NCBI RefSeq assembly: GCF_014055025.1
Contig: NZ_CP059571.1
Location: forward strand, 992,001-1,056,000
Length of the DNA stretch: 64,000 bases
Reading direction: 5' to 3'
Source: Neisseria bacilliformis
GTDB lineage: Bacteria > Pseudomonadota > Gammaproteobacteria > Burkholderiales > Neisseriaceae
The notes under the pieces were generated by a model. The model saw only the letters and a program-made list of their open reading frames with translations, did not search any database and was not told the DNA's origin. Shown in pieces: positions 4,056-41,783 of this stretch. The translations under genes and the position numbers were made by a program. Each line of letters starts with the position of its first letter. Within the stretch, counting starts at the first letter, position 1.

Positions 4056-4784
4056 TCACTTGTGCAAACCGCATTCTTTGCTGTCGCGGCTTTCCCACCA
4101 CCACCGCCCCGCGCGGATGTCCTGCCCCGCTTTCACGGGCATGGTGCAGGGTTCGCAGCCTATGCTGGGGTAGCCTTGGCGGTATAAGCCGTTGTAGGGA
4201 ATGCCGTTTTGCAACACAAACGCCCACACGTCGTGTTCCGTCCAGTCGAAAATCGGGTTGTATTTGGCGATGCCGCGTGCGGTGTCGGTTTCGGCAAACG
4301 GCAGCGTCGAGCGCGTTACCGACTGTTCGCGCCGCTGGCCGGTAAGCCATGCGTCCGCGTCGGCAAGGGCGCGGTTGAGCGGTTCGATTTTACGGATGCG
4401 GCAGCACTCGCGGCGCAAGGCCACGCTTTCGTAAAAGGCGTTTTCGCCGTGTTGCGCCACATAGGCGGCCACGTCGTCTGAAAGCGGCGTGTAGCAGCAA
4501 AAATCCAAATCGGGGTAACGCTGTGCCACTTCGTCGATCAGCGCGAGCGTTTCGGCGTTCAGACGGCCTGTTTGCAGCGTAAACACGGCAATCGGCAGTT
4601 TTTCGGCGGCGATGAGGTGGGTGATCACCATATCCTCCACCGCCAGACTGCTGGCGAGTTTCACGCGTTGGTGCGCGGCGGCGGCCTCGTGCAGGCGGCG
4701 GCGCAGGCGGTCGGTTTTTGCGGAGAGCGCGTCATACACCGACGGCGGCGGCGCGGGTATCGTCCACAGTTGCGGGCGCAGCAT
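4056..4784 (-). CDS. cysH: Phosphoadenylyl/adenylyl-sulfate reductase (APS-reductase type)
   Basis: CysH reduces the sulfonucleotide made by CysDN to sulfite using thioredoxin. The 242-residue protein starts MLRPQLWTIPAP at 4784. It has the PP-loop family motif SSLAVEDMV, two cysteine pairs (RRECCRIRK and GCEPCT) and the catalytic tail ECGLHK. Those cysteine pairs bind the [4Fe-4S] cluster that marks APS reductases (EC 1.8.4.10) as opposed to the clusterless PAPS enzymes of enterobacteria. That agrees with no CysC domain in CysN and no APS kinase gene in view. The start lies 53 bases inside the 3' end of cysG in another frame, so the two genes are probably translationally coupled. Confidence 0.94.
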   Translation of the reverse strand: MLRPQLWTIPAPPPSVYDALSAKTDRLRRRLHEAAAAHQRVKLASSLAVEDMVITHLIAAEKLPIAVFTLQTGRLNAETLALIDEVAQRYPDLDFCCYTPLSDDVAAYVAQHGENAFYESVALRRECCRIRKIEPLNRALADADAWLTGQRREQSVTRSTLPFAETDTARGIAKYNPIFDWTEHDVWAFVLQNGIPYNGLYRQGYPSIGCEPCTMPVKAGQDIRAGRWWWESRDSKECGLHK

Positions 4785-6198
4785 AAAAACGTTCCTGTCG
4801 GAAGATGAGCGGTTTGCGTTCGGCGTTTTTGCCGAACCAGTCGAGTTTTCGGCGTAAGGCAACGGTTTCTCCTATCACAATCAGCGCGGGCGATTCGGCC
4901 GCTTCGGCCAGCGCGGGCAGGGTTTGCAGCGTGCCCACGCGCACCTGCTGGCTCTGCTGCGTGCCGAGGCTGATCACGGCGGCGGGCGTGTCGCCGCTGC
5001 GGCCGTGTTTGAGCAGCTCGGCCGTCAGCTCGGCGGCGCGGATCGCGCCCATATACACCACCAGCGTCTGCCGCCCCTGCGCGAGCGTCTGCCAATTCAA
5101 GGCTTTGCCGTCGGGCTTCACATGGCCGGTTACAAACATCGCCGACTGCGCGTAATCGCGGTGCGTGAGCGGAATGCCCGCGTAGGCGGTTGCGCCCAAA
5201 GCGGCGGTAATGCCGGGGACGACTTCAAACGGTATGCCCGCCGCCGCAAGCGTTTCCAATTCCTCGCCGCCGCGCCCGAACACAAACGGGTCGCCGCCTT
5301 TGAGCCGCACCACCCGCCTGCCCTCCTGCGCGAGCCGAAGCAAAAGCGTGTTGGTGTCTTCCTGCTCCACCCTTTTGCCACCCGCGCGTTTGCCGACAAA
5401 GATTTTTTCGGCATCGCGGCGCACCAGTTCCAACACGTCGTCTGAAACCAGCGCGTCATACAAAACCACATCGGCGGCTTGGATTTTCTGCAAACCTTTG
5501 AGCGTGAGCAGCCCCGCGTCGCCCGGCCCCGCGCCCACCAGAGCCACGCTGCCGCGCCGCGTAATGCCCGCGTCGAGCGTGCGCGCCAGCAGCGTTTCGG
5601 CTTCGTCGCTGCGGCCGTTTTCGCACAGGCTTTGAAACTGCGCGTCGGCAAACAGTTTTTCCCAAAAGCGGCGGCGTTGCGTGATGCTGTTCAGACGGCC
5701 TTTCACACGGCCGCGCCAGCGTCCGGCCAGCTTCGCCATCACGCCCAAACCCTGCGGCAGCGCGGCTTCGAGCTTCTCGCGCACCAGCCGCGCCAGCACG
5801 GGGGCTTTGCCGCCGCTGGACACCGCAATCTGAATGTCGCCCCGATCGATCATCGAGGGGAACACAAAACTGCACAAAGCCGCGTTATCCACCGTGTTCG
5901 CCAGCTTCTGCCGCGCCTCGGCGGCGGCAAACACACGCCGGTTGAGCGCGGCATCGTCGGTGGCGGCGACCACGAAAAACACGCCATCGAGCAGCGCGTC
6001 GTCAAACTCCCGCGCCGCCCATTCCAGCCTGCCCGCCTCGTAAAACGCCGCCATCGCGCCGCCCAATTCTCCCGCCGCCACGCGCACACGCGCACCGGCT
6101 TTGAGCAGGTTCTCGGCCTTACGCGTCGCCACCGCGCCGCCGCCCACCAACAAAACAGGCCGGCCGCGCAAATCGGCAAAAAGGGGAAAATGGTTCAT
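4732..6198 (-). CDS. cysG: Siroheme synthase, trifunctional
   Basis: CysG makes siroheme, the prosthetic group of sulfite reductase, from uroporphyrinogen III. The 488-residue protein starts MNHFPLFADLRGRPVLLVGG at 6198. Residues 1 to about 210 form the NAD-dependent precorrin-2 dehydrogenase/ferrochelatase part (VGGGAVATRK). The C-terminal half is the SAM-dependent uroporphyrinogen C-methyltransferase (VALVGAGPGDAGLLTLKGL, then RLKGGDPFVFGRGGEE). An in-frame uptake sequence encodes GRLN near residue 165, close to the domain junction. It is the first gene of the minus-strand cys cluster, which suits its role of supplying the CysI cofactor. Confidence 0.97.
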   Translation of the reverse strand: MNHFPLFADLRGRPVLLVGGGAVATRKAENLLKAGARVRVAAGELGGAMAAFYEAGRLEWAAREFDDALLDGVFFVVAATDDAALNRRVFAAAEARQKLANTVDNAALCSFVFPSMIDRGDIQIAVSSGGKAPVLARLVREKLEAALPQGLGVMAKLAGRWRGRVKGRLNSITQRRRFWEKLFADAQFQSLCENGRSDEAETLLARTLDAGITRRGSVALVGAGPGDAGLLTLKGLQKIQAADVVLYDALVSDDVLELVRRDAEKIFVGKRAGGKRVEQEDTNTLLLRLAQEGRRVVRLKGGDPFVFGRGGEELETLAAAGIPFEVVPGITAALGATAYAGIPLTHRDYAQSAMFVTGHVKPDGKALNWQTLAQGRQTLVVYMGAIRAAELTAELLKHGRSGDTPAAVISLGTQQSQQVRVGTLQTLPALAEAAESPALIVIGETVALRRKLDWFGKNAERKPLIFRQERFYAAPATVDDTRAAAVGV

Positions 6199-6726
6199 GG
6201 CATGTATCCTGTAAACAATGGCGCGATTATAGAAAGGCGGCGCGGCGGGAAACAAAGAACCATTGCGCCTAATCTTGGAAGAAAAACGCATAAAGAGTGG
6301 GGCGGGAAGGTTTGAGGCCGTCTGAAAAACCATTTTCAGACGGCCTCTGCCGTTCAGATAAAGTAAGGAGCAAGCCATGCATGCGGTTTCGGCGGGCTGC
6401 GCGTGAGCGGGACGGAATCCGTGATGCGGCAGAGACCGCGAATCCTACATCGGTTTCGGCTTGGGTAGGATGGGAAACAGGCCGTCTGAAAACGCGGTTT
6501 CGGAGCAGCCAAAAAACCGTATTGCGGATTTTCAGACGGCCTCGTCAGGTAGGGTGTGTCGCCCAAAGGCGACGCACGTGGTTTTGGCAGGCGGGCGGTT
6601 GTTTGGGTGTTGGGAAAACGGCAGGCCGTCTGAAAACGCGGCTTCGGAGCAGCCAAAAAACCGTATACTGATTTTCAGACGGCCTGTTGAATGGCAGGGA
6701 ATGCGCGTGTCGCCTTTGGGCGGCGC

Positions 6727-6886
6727 AGGGTCTGTTGACAACCAGCCTTGCGGCGGTGTTTTTGGCAAAAACACCGCCTGCCGCGTCAAAAATGCCCGCA
6801 GGTGTCCACCTTGCTGCGCTTTTTTCCTTATATTTGGGTATTTTTTACTCAAAAAACCACTCGCAAGCTGAATGTTAACAGACCCT
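6727..6886. mobile_element. 160 bp MITE-like element, copy 1
   Basis: The element is bounded by terminal inverted repeats AGGGTCTGTTGAC and GTTAACAGACCCT and has no coding capacity. A second copy of exactly the same length lies at 57249-57408. Shared interior blocks include CAGCCTTGCGGCGGTGTTT, GCCGCGTCAAAAATGCCCGC and CCACTCGCAAGCTGAATG. Size, terminal repeats and multiple dispersed copies are those of a miniature inverted-repeat element, but no transposase or clear target duplication is visible. Confidence 0.65.
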
Positions 6887-6953
6887 AGGCCGTCTGAAAG
6901 CCAAGATATAGGGACCTGACTTTGTGTCTGCCGGTTGGATACAGGCAGAATGT

Positions 6954-6985
6954 AAAAAACCGCCTTTAAAAGGCGGTTTTTTTTT
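6954..6985 (-). terminator. Intrinsic terminator after rplI
   Basis: A perfect GC-rich stem (ACCGCC and GGCGGT arms around TTTTAAA) is flanked by an A-run on one side and a T-run on the other, so it can work in both directions. It sits 12 bases past the rplI stop codon and ends the rpsF-priB-rpsR-rplI transcript. Unlike most gene ends in this window it is not built from uptake sequences. Confidence 0.85.
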
Positions 6986-6997
6986 ACAGGCGGGCAG

Positions 6998-7450
6998 TTA
7001 TTCGGTTGCCGCAACTACGGCAACGGTGATTTTGGCGACCGCGTCGGTGTGCAGGGCAACTTCCACTTCGTATTCGCCGACGGCTTTGAACGGGCCTTCG
7101 GGCAGGCGGACGTTAGCTTTGGCTGCTTCGATGCCGGCGGCCACGATGGCGGCGGCGATGTCGGCGTTGGTTACCGAACCGAACAGGCGGCCGTCCACGC
7201 CGGCTTTCTGTGCGACGGTGACGGTTTGGCCGTCGAGTTTTTCTTTGCGCGCCTGGGCATCGGCAAGGATTTCGGCCTGACGGGCTTCCAGCTCGGCGCG
7301 GCGGGCTTCAAATTCGGCTTTGTTGGCTTCGGTGGCGCGTTTGGCTTTGCCTTGGGGGATGAGGTAGTTGCGGGCGTAGCCGTTTTTCACGGTTACGATG
7401 TCGCCCAGGCTGCCCAAGCCGCCGATTTTTTCTAACAGAATAATTTGCAT
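6998..7450 (-). CDS. rplI: 50S ribosomal protein L9
   Basis: L9 is a two-domain protein of the large subunit that binds 23S rRNA near the L1 stalk. The 150-residue product begins [19 protein letters not shown] and has the family signature for the N domain ([21 protein letters not shown]), the long charged connecting helix (residues about 45-75) and the C-terminal domain. Length matches the family. It is the last gene of the rpsF operon and is followed by an intrinsic terminator. Confidence 0.99.
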
Positions 7451-17632: not shown

Positions 17633-18100
17633 TTATTCGTAAACCGTGCAGTTTTTATCCGTGCCGTTGGCGTTGGAAAAATACGGTGCGGTTTCCCCAC
17701 AGGAGGACGCGGTGCTTTCGCAGACAGTCAGAATCATGTCTTGGTTGATGCGCAGCACGCGCGGCTCGTTTTTTTGGTCGAAGGCTACGGCTTTGACGGT
17801 AAAGCTGTCGTCCAACGCGCCGCGCGCATCGCCCTGCATCCTCATGCAGAAATGGTCGGTTTTGGGGACGGACAAATTCGCCCATGTGGTCGAATTTGTT
17901 TTGAAGCTGCGGTGCTGCGCATAGAATTGTTCGAGAGCATGGGCGTTATCAAGGAGAGCGGCGGATGCCTGTCTCAGGCGGGTGTCTCTGACGTGTTTCT
18001 GATAGGAGGGGAAAGCGATGGCAGCCAAGATGGCCAGCACCGCGATGGTTATCATCAGTTCAGTCAGGGTGAATCCCTTATGAAGAAAACGCTGCTTCAT
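17633..18100 (-). CDS. comP: Type IV minor pilin ComP, DNA uptake sequence receptor
   Basis: ComP is the minor pilin that binds the uptake sequence and starts natural transformation in Neisseria. The 155-residue prepilin has a 9-residue leader ending in Gly, then FTLTELMITIAVLAILAA with Glu5 of the mature protein. The C-terminal half follows meningococcal ComP closely as I remember it: ALLDNAHALEQFYAQHRSFK, FCMRMQGDARGALDDSFTVKAVA, and four cysteines (HFC, LTVC, SSC, KNC) that form the two disulfides of the DUS-binding DD region. Leader cleavage by PilD is expected. It lies 51 bases downstream of another pilin gene on the same strand and has a GGGGA ribosome site. Identification as ComP is firm for the family. 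Confidence 0.9.
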   Translation of the reverse strand: MKQRFLHKGFTLTELMITIAVLAILAAIAFPSYQKHVRDTRLRQASAALLDNAHALEQFYAQHRSFKTNSTTWANLSVPKTDHFCMRMQGDARGALDDSFTVKAVAFDQKNEPRVLRINQDMILTVCESTASSCGETAPYFSNANGTDKNCTVYE

Positions 18101-18151: not shown

Positions 18152-18646
18152 TTAGTACATTTCACATTCTTTAGGAGGTGTGCCTGTATCAGGAATTAAG
18201 ACGGGTGCTTGTGTGGTTGCCTGGCCAGTGCAAATTGTCGTGATGCCATCATCGTTAAGTTGCATAAACCGAGTTTCTTTGCCGTTTGTAGATGCCTTGG
18301 CTTTGGCGGTGAGTAAATAATGACCAACATCCGGGTCTGCAGCTGCATTGCTGGTTCCAACAAGATGATTACCCAATGTGCTATCTAATGGATTATAAAC
18401 GAAAAAAATATCAAAATATTTATTATCATTCTTCAATTCATTAAAGCCATTAAAGGTACGGTTTCTTGCATAAAAAGATTCCAAACGCCGGGCATTTTCT
18501 AATAAATCACCACGTACGTTTTCTAAACGCGATCTACGGATAAATTCATCGTATGAAGGATAGGCTATGGCAGCAAGAATAGCAATGACCATAATGGTCA
18601 TCATTAATTCAATCAGCGTAAAACCGTGTTGATTACCTGTTTTCAT
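18152..18646 (-). CDS. Type IV pilin-like protein, ComP-family, AT-rich
   Basis: This 164-residue prepilin has leader MKTGNQHG followed by FTLIELMMTIMVIAILAAIA, with Glu5 present. LLENARRLESFYARNRTF matches the alpha1-beta1 region of ComP-like minor pilins, and a C-terminal Cys pair (ICTG and KECEMY) closes a D loop. It differs from ComP in the central beta region and has only two cysteines. Base composition is near 40% G+C, much lower than its surroundings, with codons rich in A/T at third positions. It is upstream of comP in the same direction. It could be a second uptake-sequence binding pilin or a PilX/PilE-type minor pilin. Confidence 0.75.
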   Translation of the reverse strand: MKTGNQHGFTLIELMMTIMVIAILAAIAYPSYDEFIRRSRLENVRGDLLENARRLESFYARNRTFNGFNELKNDNKYFDIFFVYNPLDSTLGNHLVGTSNAAADPDVGHYLLTAKAKASTNGKETRFMQLNDDGITTICTGQATTQAPVLIPDTGTPPKECEMY

Positions 18647-37781: not shown

Positions 37782-40700
37782 ATGTCCGTCGTCCTCCCCC
37801 TGCGCGGCACCCGCGCCCTTTCTGATTTCCGTGTTGAAAAACTGCTGCAAAAGGCCGCTGCGCTGGGTTTGCCTGTGGCTCAGTTGTCCAGCGAATTTTG
37901 GTATTTTGCCGCGTCCGACGCGCCTTTGGCGGCGGATGATGCGGCGAAACTCGAAGCCTTGATCGACGCGCAGAGCGTGGCCGCGCCGCAGCTTTCAGAC
38001 GGCCTGAATCTGTTTTTGGTTACGCCGCGTTTGGGCACGGTGTCGCCGTGGGCGTCGAAGGCGACGGACATCGCGCACAACTGCGGCCTCTCGCAAATTA
38101 CCCGTATCGAGCGCGGCATGGCGGTATGGGTGTCAGGCCGTCTGAACGACGAACAAAAACGCCAATGGGCGTCGCTGCTGCACGACCGCATGACCGAGTC
38201 GGTATTGCCCGATTTTCAGGCTGCCGAAAAGCTGTTTGCCCACCCCGAAGCACAAACTTTCGCCACGGTGGACGTATTGGGCGGCGGCCGCGACGCGCTG
38301 GTCAAAGCCAATACCGAGCTGGGCTTGGCGCTCTCACCCGACGAGATTGATTATCTGGTGGAAAACTATCGCGCGTTGAACCGCAATCCGTCAGATGTTG
38401 AACTGATGATGTTCGCGCAGGCCAACTCGGAGCATTGCCGCCACAAGATTTTCAACGCTGATTTTATTTTGAACGGCGAAGCGCAGGCGAAATCCCTGTT
38501 CCGCATGATCCGCGACACCCACGAGGCGCACCCCGAGGGCACGGTGGTGGCCTATAAAGACAATGCGTCGATTATCGAGGGCGCGAAAATCCGGCGTTTT
38601 TATCCGCATGCGGCGGAAAATCAGGGCTACCGTTTCGCCGAGGAAGACACGCACATCCTGATGAAAGTGGAAACCCACAACCACCCCACCGCCATCGCGC
38701 CTTTTGCCGGCGCGGCCACCGGCGCGGGCGGCGAAATCCGCGATGAGGGCGCAACCGGTCGCGGCGCACGGCCGAAAGCGGGTTTGACCGGCTTTACCGT
38801 GTCCAACCTCAATATCCCGGGCTTTGCGCAGCCGTGGGAGCAGCCCTACGGCAAACCCGGCCATCTGGCTTCTGCGCTGGATATTATGATCGACGGCCCC
38901 ATCGGCGGCGCGGCGTTTAACAACGAATTCGGCCGCCCCAATCTCTTGGGCTATTTCCGCACCTTTGAGCAGGAGTTTGACGGCCAAATGCGCGGCTACC
39001 ACAAGCCGATTATGATTGCCGGCGGCTTGGGCAACATCCAGGCGCAGCAGACGCATAAAAACGAAATCCCCGAAGGCGCGTTGTTAATCCAACTCGGCGG
39101 CCCGGGGATGCTGATTGGTTTGGGCGGCGGCGCGGCTTCTTCGATGGACACCGGCAGCAACGATTCCAGCCTGGATTTCAACTCGGTACAGCGCGGCAAC
39201 CCCGAAATCGAACGCCGCGCGCAGGAAGTGATCGACCGCTGCTGGCAGCTGGGCGACGCCAATCCGATTATCGCCATTCACGACGTAGGCGCGGGCGGTT
39301 TGTCCAACGCCTTCCCCGAATTGGTGAACGACGCAGGGCGCGGCGCGGTGTTTAAGCTGCGCGACGTGCCTCTGGAAGAACACGGTTTAACGCCGCTGCA
39401 AATCTGGTGCAACGAAGCGCAGGAGCGTTATGTGTTGTCCGTATTGCCGGAAAATCTCGACACTTTCTCTGCCCTGTGCGAGCGCGAACGCTGCCCGTTT
39501 GCCGTAGTCGGCACAGCCACCGACGACGGCCATTTGCAGGTGCGCGACGATTTGTACAGCAACAATCCCGTCGATTTGCCGCTCAACGTGTTGCTCGGCA
39601 AACCGCCCAAAACCACGCGCCGCGACGAGACCGTAAGGCCGTCTGAAAACACGAAAACAGGTTTTTCAGGCTGCCAAATCGATTTGAAAGAAGCCGCCTA
39701 CCGCGTGTTGCGCCTGCCTGCCGTGGCTGCCAAAAACTTCCTGATTACCATTGGCGACCGCAGCGTCGGCGGCCTCACTGCGCGCGACCAGATGGTCGGC
39801 CGCTACCAAACGCCGGTGGCCGACTGCGCCGTAACCATGATGGGCTTCGACACCTATCGCGGCGAAGCGATGGCGATGGGTGAAAAACCCGCCGTCGCCC
39901 TGTTTGACGCGCCCGCGTCGGGCAGAATGTGCATCGGCGAAGCCATCACCAATCTGGCGGCGGTGAACATCGGCGACATCGGCAACATCAAACTTTCCGC
40001 CAACTGGATGGCCGCCTGCGGCAACGCGGGCGAAGATGAAAAACTCTACCGCACCGTGCAGGCCGTGTCCGAAACCTGTCAGGATTTGGGTATCAGCATT
40101 CCCGTGGGCAAAGACTCGCTGTCGATGAAAACCGTGTGGCAGGACGATGGCGCGCAAAAATCCGTAACCTCGCCGCTGTCGCTGGTGATTACCGGCTTTG
40201 CGCCGGTGGCCGACGTACGCAAAACCGTTACCCCTGAGTTGAAAAATGTAGCCGACAGCGTGTTGCTGTTTATCGATTTGGGCTTCGGCAAAGCCCGCAT
40301 GGGCGGCTCGGCGCTGGCGCAGGTGTACAACGAAACCGGCGGCGAAGCGCCCGACATCAATAATATAGGCCGTCTGAAAGCGTTTTATGAAGTGATGCAG
40401 AAGCTGGTGGCCGAAGACAAACTCTTGGCCTACCACGACCGCAGCGACGGCGGTTTGTTCGCCACGCTCGCGGAAATGGCGTTTGCGGCGCGGGTGGGGC
40501 TGGATGTGGACGTGTCCGGCTTTATGCAGGTCAACTCGCTGATCACCAAATGGCCGGACGAAGAAGCCATGCTCCGCTGCCTGTTTAACGAAGAGTTGGG
40601 CGCGGTGTTGCAGGTACGCAAAGAAGACGAGGCCGAAATCCACTCCCTCTTCGAGCTCAACCGCGTGGTTACCAATGTCGGCCGTTTTCAGGTAGCCAAG

Positions 40701-41783
40701 CCCAACGACACAGGCAGCCTGAAAATCAGCTACACCATGCTTACGCCGAAAATGGGCAAAGACGAAAACGGCGAAGACTGCCTGATGGTTGAAAAACGCA
40801 CCCGCACCGTGTTCAACGAGCCGCTGTTGGATTTGCAAAAAGCCTGGCAGGAAACCTCCCACCAAATCCAGCGCCTGCGCGACAACCCCGAATGCGCCGA
40901 CAGCGAGTTTGCCCTGTTGGCTGACGACGCGCGCTCCGCCCTGTCTGCCGATTTGACTTTCAACCCGCAAGACGACATCGCCGCGCCGTTTATCCACAGC
41001 GGCGCAAAACCGAAAATCGCCGTATTGCGCGAACAGGGCGTCAACGGCCAGGTGGAAATGGCCGCCGCCTTTACCCGCGCGGGCTTCGATGCTTACGACG
41101 TGCACATGAGCGACTTGATGGCCGGCCGCGCCAAGCTCGCCGACTTCCAAATGTTCGCCGCCTGCGGCGGATTCAGCTACGGCGACGTACTCGGCGCAGG
41201 CGAAGGCTGGGCGAAAACCATCCTGTTCCACCCCGCGCTGCGCGAGCAGTTTGCCGCCTTCTTCGCGCGCCCAGACACCCTCGCGCTGGGCGTGTGCAAC
41301 GGCTGCCAAATGATGAGCAACCTCGCCGAAATTATCCCCGGCAGCGCAGGCTGGCCGAAGTTCAAACGCAACCGCAGCGAACAGTTTGAAGCCCGTTTGA
41401 GCATGGTGGAAGTTGCCAAATCTCCCTCGCTGATTCTGGCCGAAATGCAGGGCAGCCGCCTGCCCGTGGTCGTCAGCCACGGCGAAGGCCGCGCCGATTT
41501 CGCCCACTTGGGACGCGACGGCAATTCGGTGTCAGACGGCCTTAACATCGCCCTGCAATACATCGACGGTACCGGCGCCGTTACCCAAACCTACCCGCTC
41601 AACCCCAACGGCTCGCCGCAGGGCATCGCCGGCATCACCAACGCCGACGGCCGCATCACCATCATGATGCCCCACCCCGAGCGCGTGTACAAAACCGCGC
41701 AAATGAGCTGGCAGCCTGAAAACTGGGGCGAATTGGGCGGCTGGTATCGGATGTTCGCCGCCGCGCGTAAGGTGTTGGGTTAA
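37782..41783 (+). CDS. purL: Phosphoribosylformylglycinamidine synthase
   Basis: PurL converts FGAR to FGAM with ATP and glutamine, the fourth step of purine synthesis. At 1333 residues it is the large single-chain type. Landmarks are [19 protein letters not shown] near residue 205, [20 protein letters not shown] near 290, the second synthase half ([18 protein letters not shown] near 660) and a C-terminal glutamine amidotransferase ([18 protein letters not shown], nucleophile Cys in GVCNGCQMM near 1170, and HGEGRADF). A linker at residues 617-632 ([14 protein letters not shown]) is encoded by an inverted uptake-sequence pair inserted in the gene. Five words of other DUS dialects also occur in it. 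Confidence 0.98.

Follow-up and report, generated by a model that had tools for sequence, protein, structure and literature searches.

Foreign-dialect uptake words in a Neisseria purL gene: possible immigrants of the kingDUS dialect on DUS slots shared between dialects

The division of DUS into dialects is regarded as a brake on gene exchange among Neisseriaceae, and a housekeeping gene that carries uptake words of other dialects raises the question of how these words came to stand there. The window analyzed here, a 64-kb stretch of DNA (bases 992001-1056000 of the 2,492,712-base source genome, G000), contains the kingDUS 11-mer GGCAGCCTGAA four times, at 38215 (-), 39665 (-), 40713 (+), and 41710 (+), and the eikDUS core GGCTACCTGAA as a single copy at 40687 (-). 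All five words lie within purL (Table 1). The full 12-mer AGGCAGCCTGAA occurs in purL only at 40712-40723, and the other three king 11-mers are preceded by C, T, and T. In shuffled versions of the window, the mean count of the 11-mer was 0.04, and four copies were reached in 0 of 100 shuffles. The first-pass annotation had located the king and eik words correctly and was right that chance would give far fewer than one king 11-mer; the native AG-DUS that it mentioned are also there, as four words (37994, 38136, 39637, and 40368). Since the AG and king words are interleaved along purL, no import tract is visible. The names of the DUS dialects, and the muc and wad spellings used in the counts, are what we take to be the accepted ones.

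Table 1. Coordinates of purL, its uptake words, comP, and purL loci whose dialect differs from that of their flanks
Feature	Position	Strand	DUS in other rows of the purL alignment	Basis
purL, phosphoribosylformylglycinamidine synthase, 1333 aa	37782..41783	+		TIGR01735, 2037.8 bits (cut-off 1123); ORF
AG-DUS core, shared slot	37994..38004	-	AG 5, eik 1, sim 1	codon alignment
AG-DUS core, shared slot	38136..38146	+	muc 8, king 7, AG 3	codon alignment
kingDUS core, shared slot	38215..38225	-	51 other rows: AG 20, AT 5, sim 4, eik 1	word search, codon alignment
AG-DUS core, shared slot	39637..39647	+	AG 11, muc 4, king 3, AT 1, sim 1	codon alignment
kingDUS core, shared slot	39665..39675	-	eik 8; AT 3 bases on in 3	word search, codon alignment
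AG-DUS core, shared slot	40368..40378	+	AG 22, muc 7, king 5, eik 1	codon alignment
eikDUS core GGCTACCTGAA, variable linker, inverted partner of the 40712 word	40687..40697	-	none	
full 12-mer kingDUS AGGCAGCCTGAA, variable linker	40712..40723	+	none	
kingDUS core in W-x-P-E motif	41710..41720	+	none; 1 base off the G010 sequence	
comP, DUS receptor pilin, intact	17633..18100	-		PF16732, 46 bits (cut-off 27.3)
purL, dialect other than that of flanks, L031	3001-6963			
purL, dialect other than that of flanks, L035	3001-6939			
purL, dialect other than that of flanks, L032	1178-5143			
purL, dialect other than that of flanks, L038	3001-6978			

The absence of king and eik words outside purL held for the window but not for the genome. 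G000 has 376 copies of the king 11-mer (192 and 184 on the two strands), 272 of which extend to the 12-mer, compared with one of the four in purL; AG-DUS 12-mers number 3951. The 45 congeners contain 6-66 king 11-mers and 2-54 king 12-mers each. King-rich genomes exist in the family, with 3747 copies in G065, the largest count among the genomes compared, and 3316 in G082; the level of nearly 6000 kingDUS copies described for K. oralis (PMC3630211) was reached by none of the genomes compared. The eikDUS occurs 49 times in G000, 0-98 times in the 45 congeners, and 3196 and 1766 times in G048 and G049 of genus g3. With 376 king copies in the genome, 9.7 are expected per 64 kb, so the window with its four is poor in king words. 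The uniform Poisson probability of four king words in 4 kb is 0.003 for one given stretch, and 2.1 such stretches are expected genome-wide. At least four king words were found in 3 of 96 4-kb bins when the stretches chosen as king-rich were set aside, and in 12 of 116 bins overall. Furthermore, a 20-kb nitrate-reductase/molybdenum region (L173), consisting of several genes and not one, carries 20 copies, a density equal to that of purL. This takes away the exceptional king density ascribed to purL and largely supplies the counterexample of long core genes with equal density, in the form of a multi-gene region. The purL clump is real but not unique in the genome; as a foreign-dialect cluster beyond chance it stands, and as something special to purL it does not.

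King words are clumped along the genome. In 10-kb bins the ratio of variance to mean was 2.61, against a random maximum of 1.59 in 5000 trials, for the 100 listed plus-strand king matches of 192, which cover the first 1.27 Mb. A 464-kb sample, composed of the window and 20 other stretches, four of them chosen as king-rich, contained 779 AG words and 100 king words. The AG core has 495 two-base variants, of which sim, with 11 copies in this sample, came second to king. The two one-step intermediates between AG and king words had 7 copies each against 100 king words; because they are so rare, king words are unlikely to have arisen by drift from AG words, and neutral two-step drift was set aside. 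The 12 bins with at least four king words averaged 3.9 AG words and a GC content of 0.585, compared with 7.4 and 0.602 in the 82 king-free bins. When the four chosen stretches were removed, the relation of king words to GC held (p 0.006), and that to AG words had a p value of 0.09. One tract, at 11.6-15.8 kb of L163, contained 12 king words and 0 AG words.

The state of preservation of the words was compared by a near-miss ratio, that is, the number of single-base variants per intact word minus the background of scrambled words. In G000 this ratio was 0.77 for king words overall (1.23 in the unchosen stretches and 0.49 in the four chosen ones) versus 0.09 for AG words. In loci of native genera it was 0.28 for king (only 49 words), 0.44 for sim (38 words), and 0.03 for eik of g3 (46 words); AG words in other Neisseria gave 0.24 (120 words). 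An A precedes 74 of the 100 king words and 748 of the 779 AG words of G000, and 47 of the 49 king words of native loci. Part of the king near-miss excess is due to one variant, AGCAGCCTGAA, which has 29 copies in the 464-kb sample, more than every single-base variant of the AG core, and which may be a separate dialect word. The near-miss contrast is large relative to the AG words of the same genome; relative to native king and sim words it is moderate and drawn from small samples. The king words of G000 look like eroding immigrants rather than a maintained second dialect.

One king-marked operon is shared with other Neisseria genomes. The genes at L162 2463-7144 encode an outer-membrane efflux protein, an MFS transporter, and an EmrA-type adaptor. 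This operon was 97% identical to its counterpart in G018, and the part from 4230 to 7144 was 99% identical to those in G006 and G024; king words are present in all three copies. The genome-wide counts of king 11-mers are low in these genomes (44 in G018, 28 in G006, and 21 in G024), so they are not king genomes, which indicates that king-marked DNA is moving among Neisseria.

In a codon alignment of 52 purL rows, six of the nine uptake words of G000 purL had a DUS of another row on the same strand no more than 3 bases away. Such places cover 2.8% of the positions, and the nominal binomial p value for six of nine is 4e-8. When the purL words of six other genomes were compared with the AG, AT, and muc slots of Neisseria (coverage 0.9%), matches were obtained for 5 of 7 words in G048, 4 of 9 in G065, 4 of 6 in G081, and 3 of 8 in G082, and the agreement was weak in G054 (1 of 3) and G063 (1 of 8). 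The 38215 and 39665 king words stand where other species keep a DUS in their own spelling. At slot 38215 king is the spelling of G000, and 21 of the 52 rows have no DUS; at slot 40368 the AG spelling is found in 23 rows including G000, and 16 have none. It had been considered that conserved codons might force the positions, an idea that was set aside for the two shared king slots: a DUS exactly in place is missing in 21 of 52 rows at 38215 and in 43 of 52 at 39665, although 3 of these 43 have one 3 bases on. No counterpart DUS was found in any other row of the 52-row alignment for the words at 40687, 40713, and 41710; because the 41710 copy is one base from the G010 row, it may be a near-miss and not an arrived word. 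In L173, 8 of the 20 king words could be aligned to G048, and 5 of these 8 are eikDUS there, compared with 1 of 6 AG words; the king word at L173 16761 is one base off several rows. The dialect words have GGC and CTGAA in common, so that few changes turn one dialect word into another. Since the reading frame is fixed, the PurL residue follows the word, being T, A, or V at 38215 and R, S, or Y at 40368. With roughly equal chances of being right or wrong, the slots, defined by place and strand, would outlive the dialects in this housekeeping gene throughout the family, the spelling being rewritten to the local dialect, the taste of the receptor setting PurL residues, and purL alleles shuttling across dialects. 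Slot sharing across dialects was not found in the parts of the open-licence literature that were searched. The stretch at window 40296-40450 resembles, by eye, the purL primers of the gel-shift probe used for ComP of N. meningitidis 8013 (PMC3868556), and slot 40368 may thus already have served in binding tests.

The ancestry of purL was examined with the same 52 rows, which comprise G000, 48 other genomes, and three named loci (L038, L040, and L048); from the 54 purL loci, L034 (the same record as L148) and L159 were left out. The purL of L159 (G013) matched in two pieces, the first of which ends at residue 676. A further 31 genomes with a purL match are outside this alignment, and no DNA-level purL match was found in G028 and G073. 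All trees were quick searches with SH-aLRT support only, and L040 (Snodgrassella) and L048 (Crenobacter) were counted in the Neisseria means of the whole-gene window scan and not in the means of the flank and GC comparisons. The identity of G000 purL was highest with G011 (0.794), about 0.79 with many Neisseria rows, and 0.70-0.71 with g9 and g12; for other stretches of the window, the best listed rows were 72-87% identical. All 25 of the 300-base windows along the gene gave a lower mean identity to the g2, g5, g9, and g12 rows than to the Neisseria rows. The GC content of purL is 0.605, compared with 0.611 for the window. In the 52-row tree G000 grouped with G048 and 12 others (SH-aLRT 98). 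In AU tests without the g8 rows, which are far off in that tree, and without g7, forcing G000 purL into the six Conchiformibius/Alysiella-type rows (g2, g9, g12, and L038) was rejected (p 0.005), as was forcing it with g9 and g12 alone (p 9e-5). The tree, AU, and identity results indicate that purL is of the Neisseria or g3 type, and import of the whole gene from a Kingella-type donor in the sample was set aside on the AU results, the 25 windows, and the ordinary GC. The Kingella half of the suggested import from a Kingella- or Eikenella-like donor is thereby contradicted for the sampled lineages, in the tree as well as in the scan along the gene; the link to the Eikenella type is weak, G000 and G048 (eik dialect) being purL sisters in one tree (SH-aLRT 94) and three others giving no resolved placement. 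The linker at 40.6-40.9 kb, which holds a king and the eik word, is poorly alignable, with G054 (g5) as the best row at 0.64 (0.57-0.62 in a second comparison), and this similarity would lean weakly to a non-Neisseria genus. The flanks of the purL king words were not closer to Conchiformibius/Alysiella-type rows, except at 38215, where the 45-base flanks gave a tie-like 0.82 (L038) versus 0.81.

A comparison tree was built from TerC and MnmA. The gene at window 45.7-47.2 kb, which G000 carries a second time at 602 kb, was for that reason kept out of the trees. In the TerC+MnmA tree G000 grouped with G012 (support 99); without G012 it grouped weakly with G016, G047, and G066 (77). Placement of purL on the TerC/MnmA side was not rejected (AU p 0.25). 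Constraining G000 to its purL partners on TerC+MnmA was strongly rejected; this result was left unused, since the constraint also tied G048 and G049 to further rows and the rejection therefore says nothing on G000 alone.

In the family, purL does cross dialect borders. It was in a dialect other than that of its flanks in four of six named loci, which we had picked ourselves. N. sp. 83E34 has 13 wad words in the flanks and three AG words and one eik word in purL, and N. wadsworthii has 12 wad words in the flanks and four AG words in purL. A MAG titled Eikenella (binning unchecked) has eik and sim flanks with four AG words and one eik word in purL, and N. sp. S30M_Sa_57 has AG/AT flanks with purL words that are mostly king/sim. 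In L033 and L034 the dialect of purL is that of the flanks. Between 83E34 and the AG genome G027, purL identity reaches 94% over the gene alone, compared with 80% for a 341-base upstream piece. In addition, G012 (L129), which has 2809 AG-DUS, carries two muc words in purL, and its protein is nearly the same as those of G021 and G023; this purL is likely another swap. From the four cross-dialect loci, the idea of a travelling purL is right for the family, and it is not thereby demonstrated for G000.

We put at about even chances the reading that the purL words are part of a genome-wide, clumped, and eroding population of immigrant kingDUS. DNA of one or more king-dialect relatives would be taken up by transformation and integrated by recombination; the imported pieces would measure some kb elsewhere in the genome and, in purL, would probably be short patches. 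King uptake words would thereby stay behind in a genome of mainly AG dialect. Two king words of purL would have replaced words on old slots, one would have come to lie in the free linker beside the eik word, and one is perhaps a near-miss. The count of 376 against 6-66, the clumping, the AG-free tract, the near-misses, the shared operon, and the shared slots all point to immigration. Against it, the near-miss ratio of the rich stretches (0.49) is close to that of native sim words (0.44), the relation to AG words is not firm in the unchosen stretches (p 0.09), and the search for a donor yielded none, the king-word flanks in purL being no nearer to king-dialect rows, the tie at 38215 aside. The whole purL allele might instead stem from a king-dialect lineage outside the sample, possibly one close to G048, with AG words later restored at several slots. 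The swaps in four of six other loci and the difference between the purL and TerC+MnmA placements of G000 (98 versus 99) speak for this. It is nevertheless unlikely: the TerC/MnmA side is not rejected for purL, the place of G000 in the other tree is weak without G012, the purL of G012, with muc words although that genome is AG, itself appears to be an import, and the GC is ordinary. Short patches in purL seem likelier than a whole allele.

Somewhat more doubtful is the suggestion that the lineage formerly used the king dialect and later AG, the king words being leftovers. Fossils would agree with the larger number of king near-misses and with the eik spelling that G048 has at king slots (5 of 8 in L173, and 39665 in purL), but the clumping, the AG-free tract, and an operon nearly identical in other species point to arrival, and the 45 congeners have few king words. 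It is very improbable, as judged from the words themselves, that a tolerant ComP would read king as a second functional dialect. Eight inverted king/king pairs, plus then minus strand, are present in the sample and there is one intact comP; however, the near-miss ratio of 0.77 versus 0.09 for AG (native controls being small, with sim at 0.44) and the less frequent A before the word (74 of 100 versus 748 of 779) mean that king words are not kept intact like native AG words, and a maintained second dialect was set aside. The least probable source of the purL clump is chance or codon use, given the 0.04 copies expected in the window and the two words on shared slots. Single words such as 41710 and L173 16761, each one base off other rows, and the 6-66 copies in congeners that are not king genomes fit such an origin; chance is an unlikely cause of the entire clump and a possible one for 41710 alone.

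Immigrant kingDUS of this sort is of a known kind. In the peregrine DUS described by Frye et al. (2013, PMC3630211), a minority dialect among native words was attributed to exchange among species sharing a niche, with mucDUS making up 0.5-8% (up to 467 copies) in the canonical group. The king words of G000 are likewise a minority dialect, with 376 copies against 6-66 in the congeners and 100 in the sample against 11 for the next variant; unlike the mucDUS case as given there, the dialect is kingDUS and the words are clumped, eroding, and on shared slots. KingDUS is reported to be about 5000 times less effective than AT-DUS in transforming N. meningitidis (ratio 0.0002; PMC3630211). In islands marked by foreign DUS, such as the gonococcal WHO F element, acquired DNA with a lower GC content is enriched in kingDUS and simDUS (PMC7371117). 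L162 and part of L163 resemble such islands, whereas purL is a core gene of ordinary GC in which four native AG words stand between foreign ones. Simonsiella muelleri, for which 2257 kingDUS, 2292 simDUS, many overlapping dyads, and a single comP are reported (PMC3630211), also has two dialects in one genome, but in near-equal numbers, unlike the 779 AG to 100 king words of the G000 sample. Treangen et al. (2008, PMC2397512) described DUS at aligned core-genome positions and thought new DUS to be borne by recombination; the purL slots are similar in their conservation, and differ from that account of six genomes of one dialect group in carrying different dialects across genera. The load of G000 and the cross-dialect slots are worth following. 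Words of another dialect form a measurable load in this genome, and slots spelled differently across genera form a site-by-site record of dialect change. Such a record could tell whether mutation or recombination at old slots spreads a new dialect, and named genomes would allow donors to be found and dialect switches to be ordered. The link between word and residue in PurL means that uptake bias can shape a core enzyme.

The nearest relative of the G000 comP among the loci compared was that of G012 (63%). A second pilin-like gene adjoins it at 18152-18646 (-), with 34.3 bits, above the ComP_DUS cut-off, and the tandem pair of comP and a pilin-like gene is present in many congeners. At a spacing of 3 bases between 12-mers, no AG/AG or king/king pair was found in the 464-kb sample. 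A compact inverted AG and king pair with this spacing occurs eight times in G000, once in G018, and 0 times in the other 81 genomes; examples in G000 are at L173 7309, 9428, 13251, and 17473, and at L168 9010.
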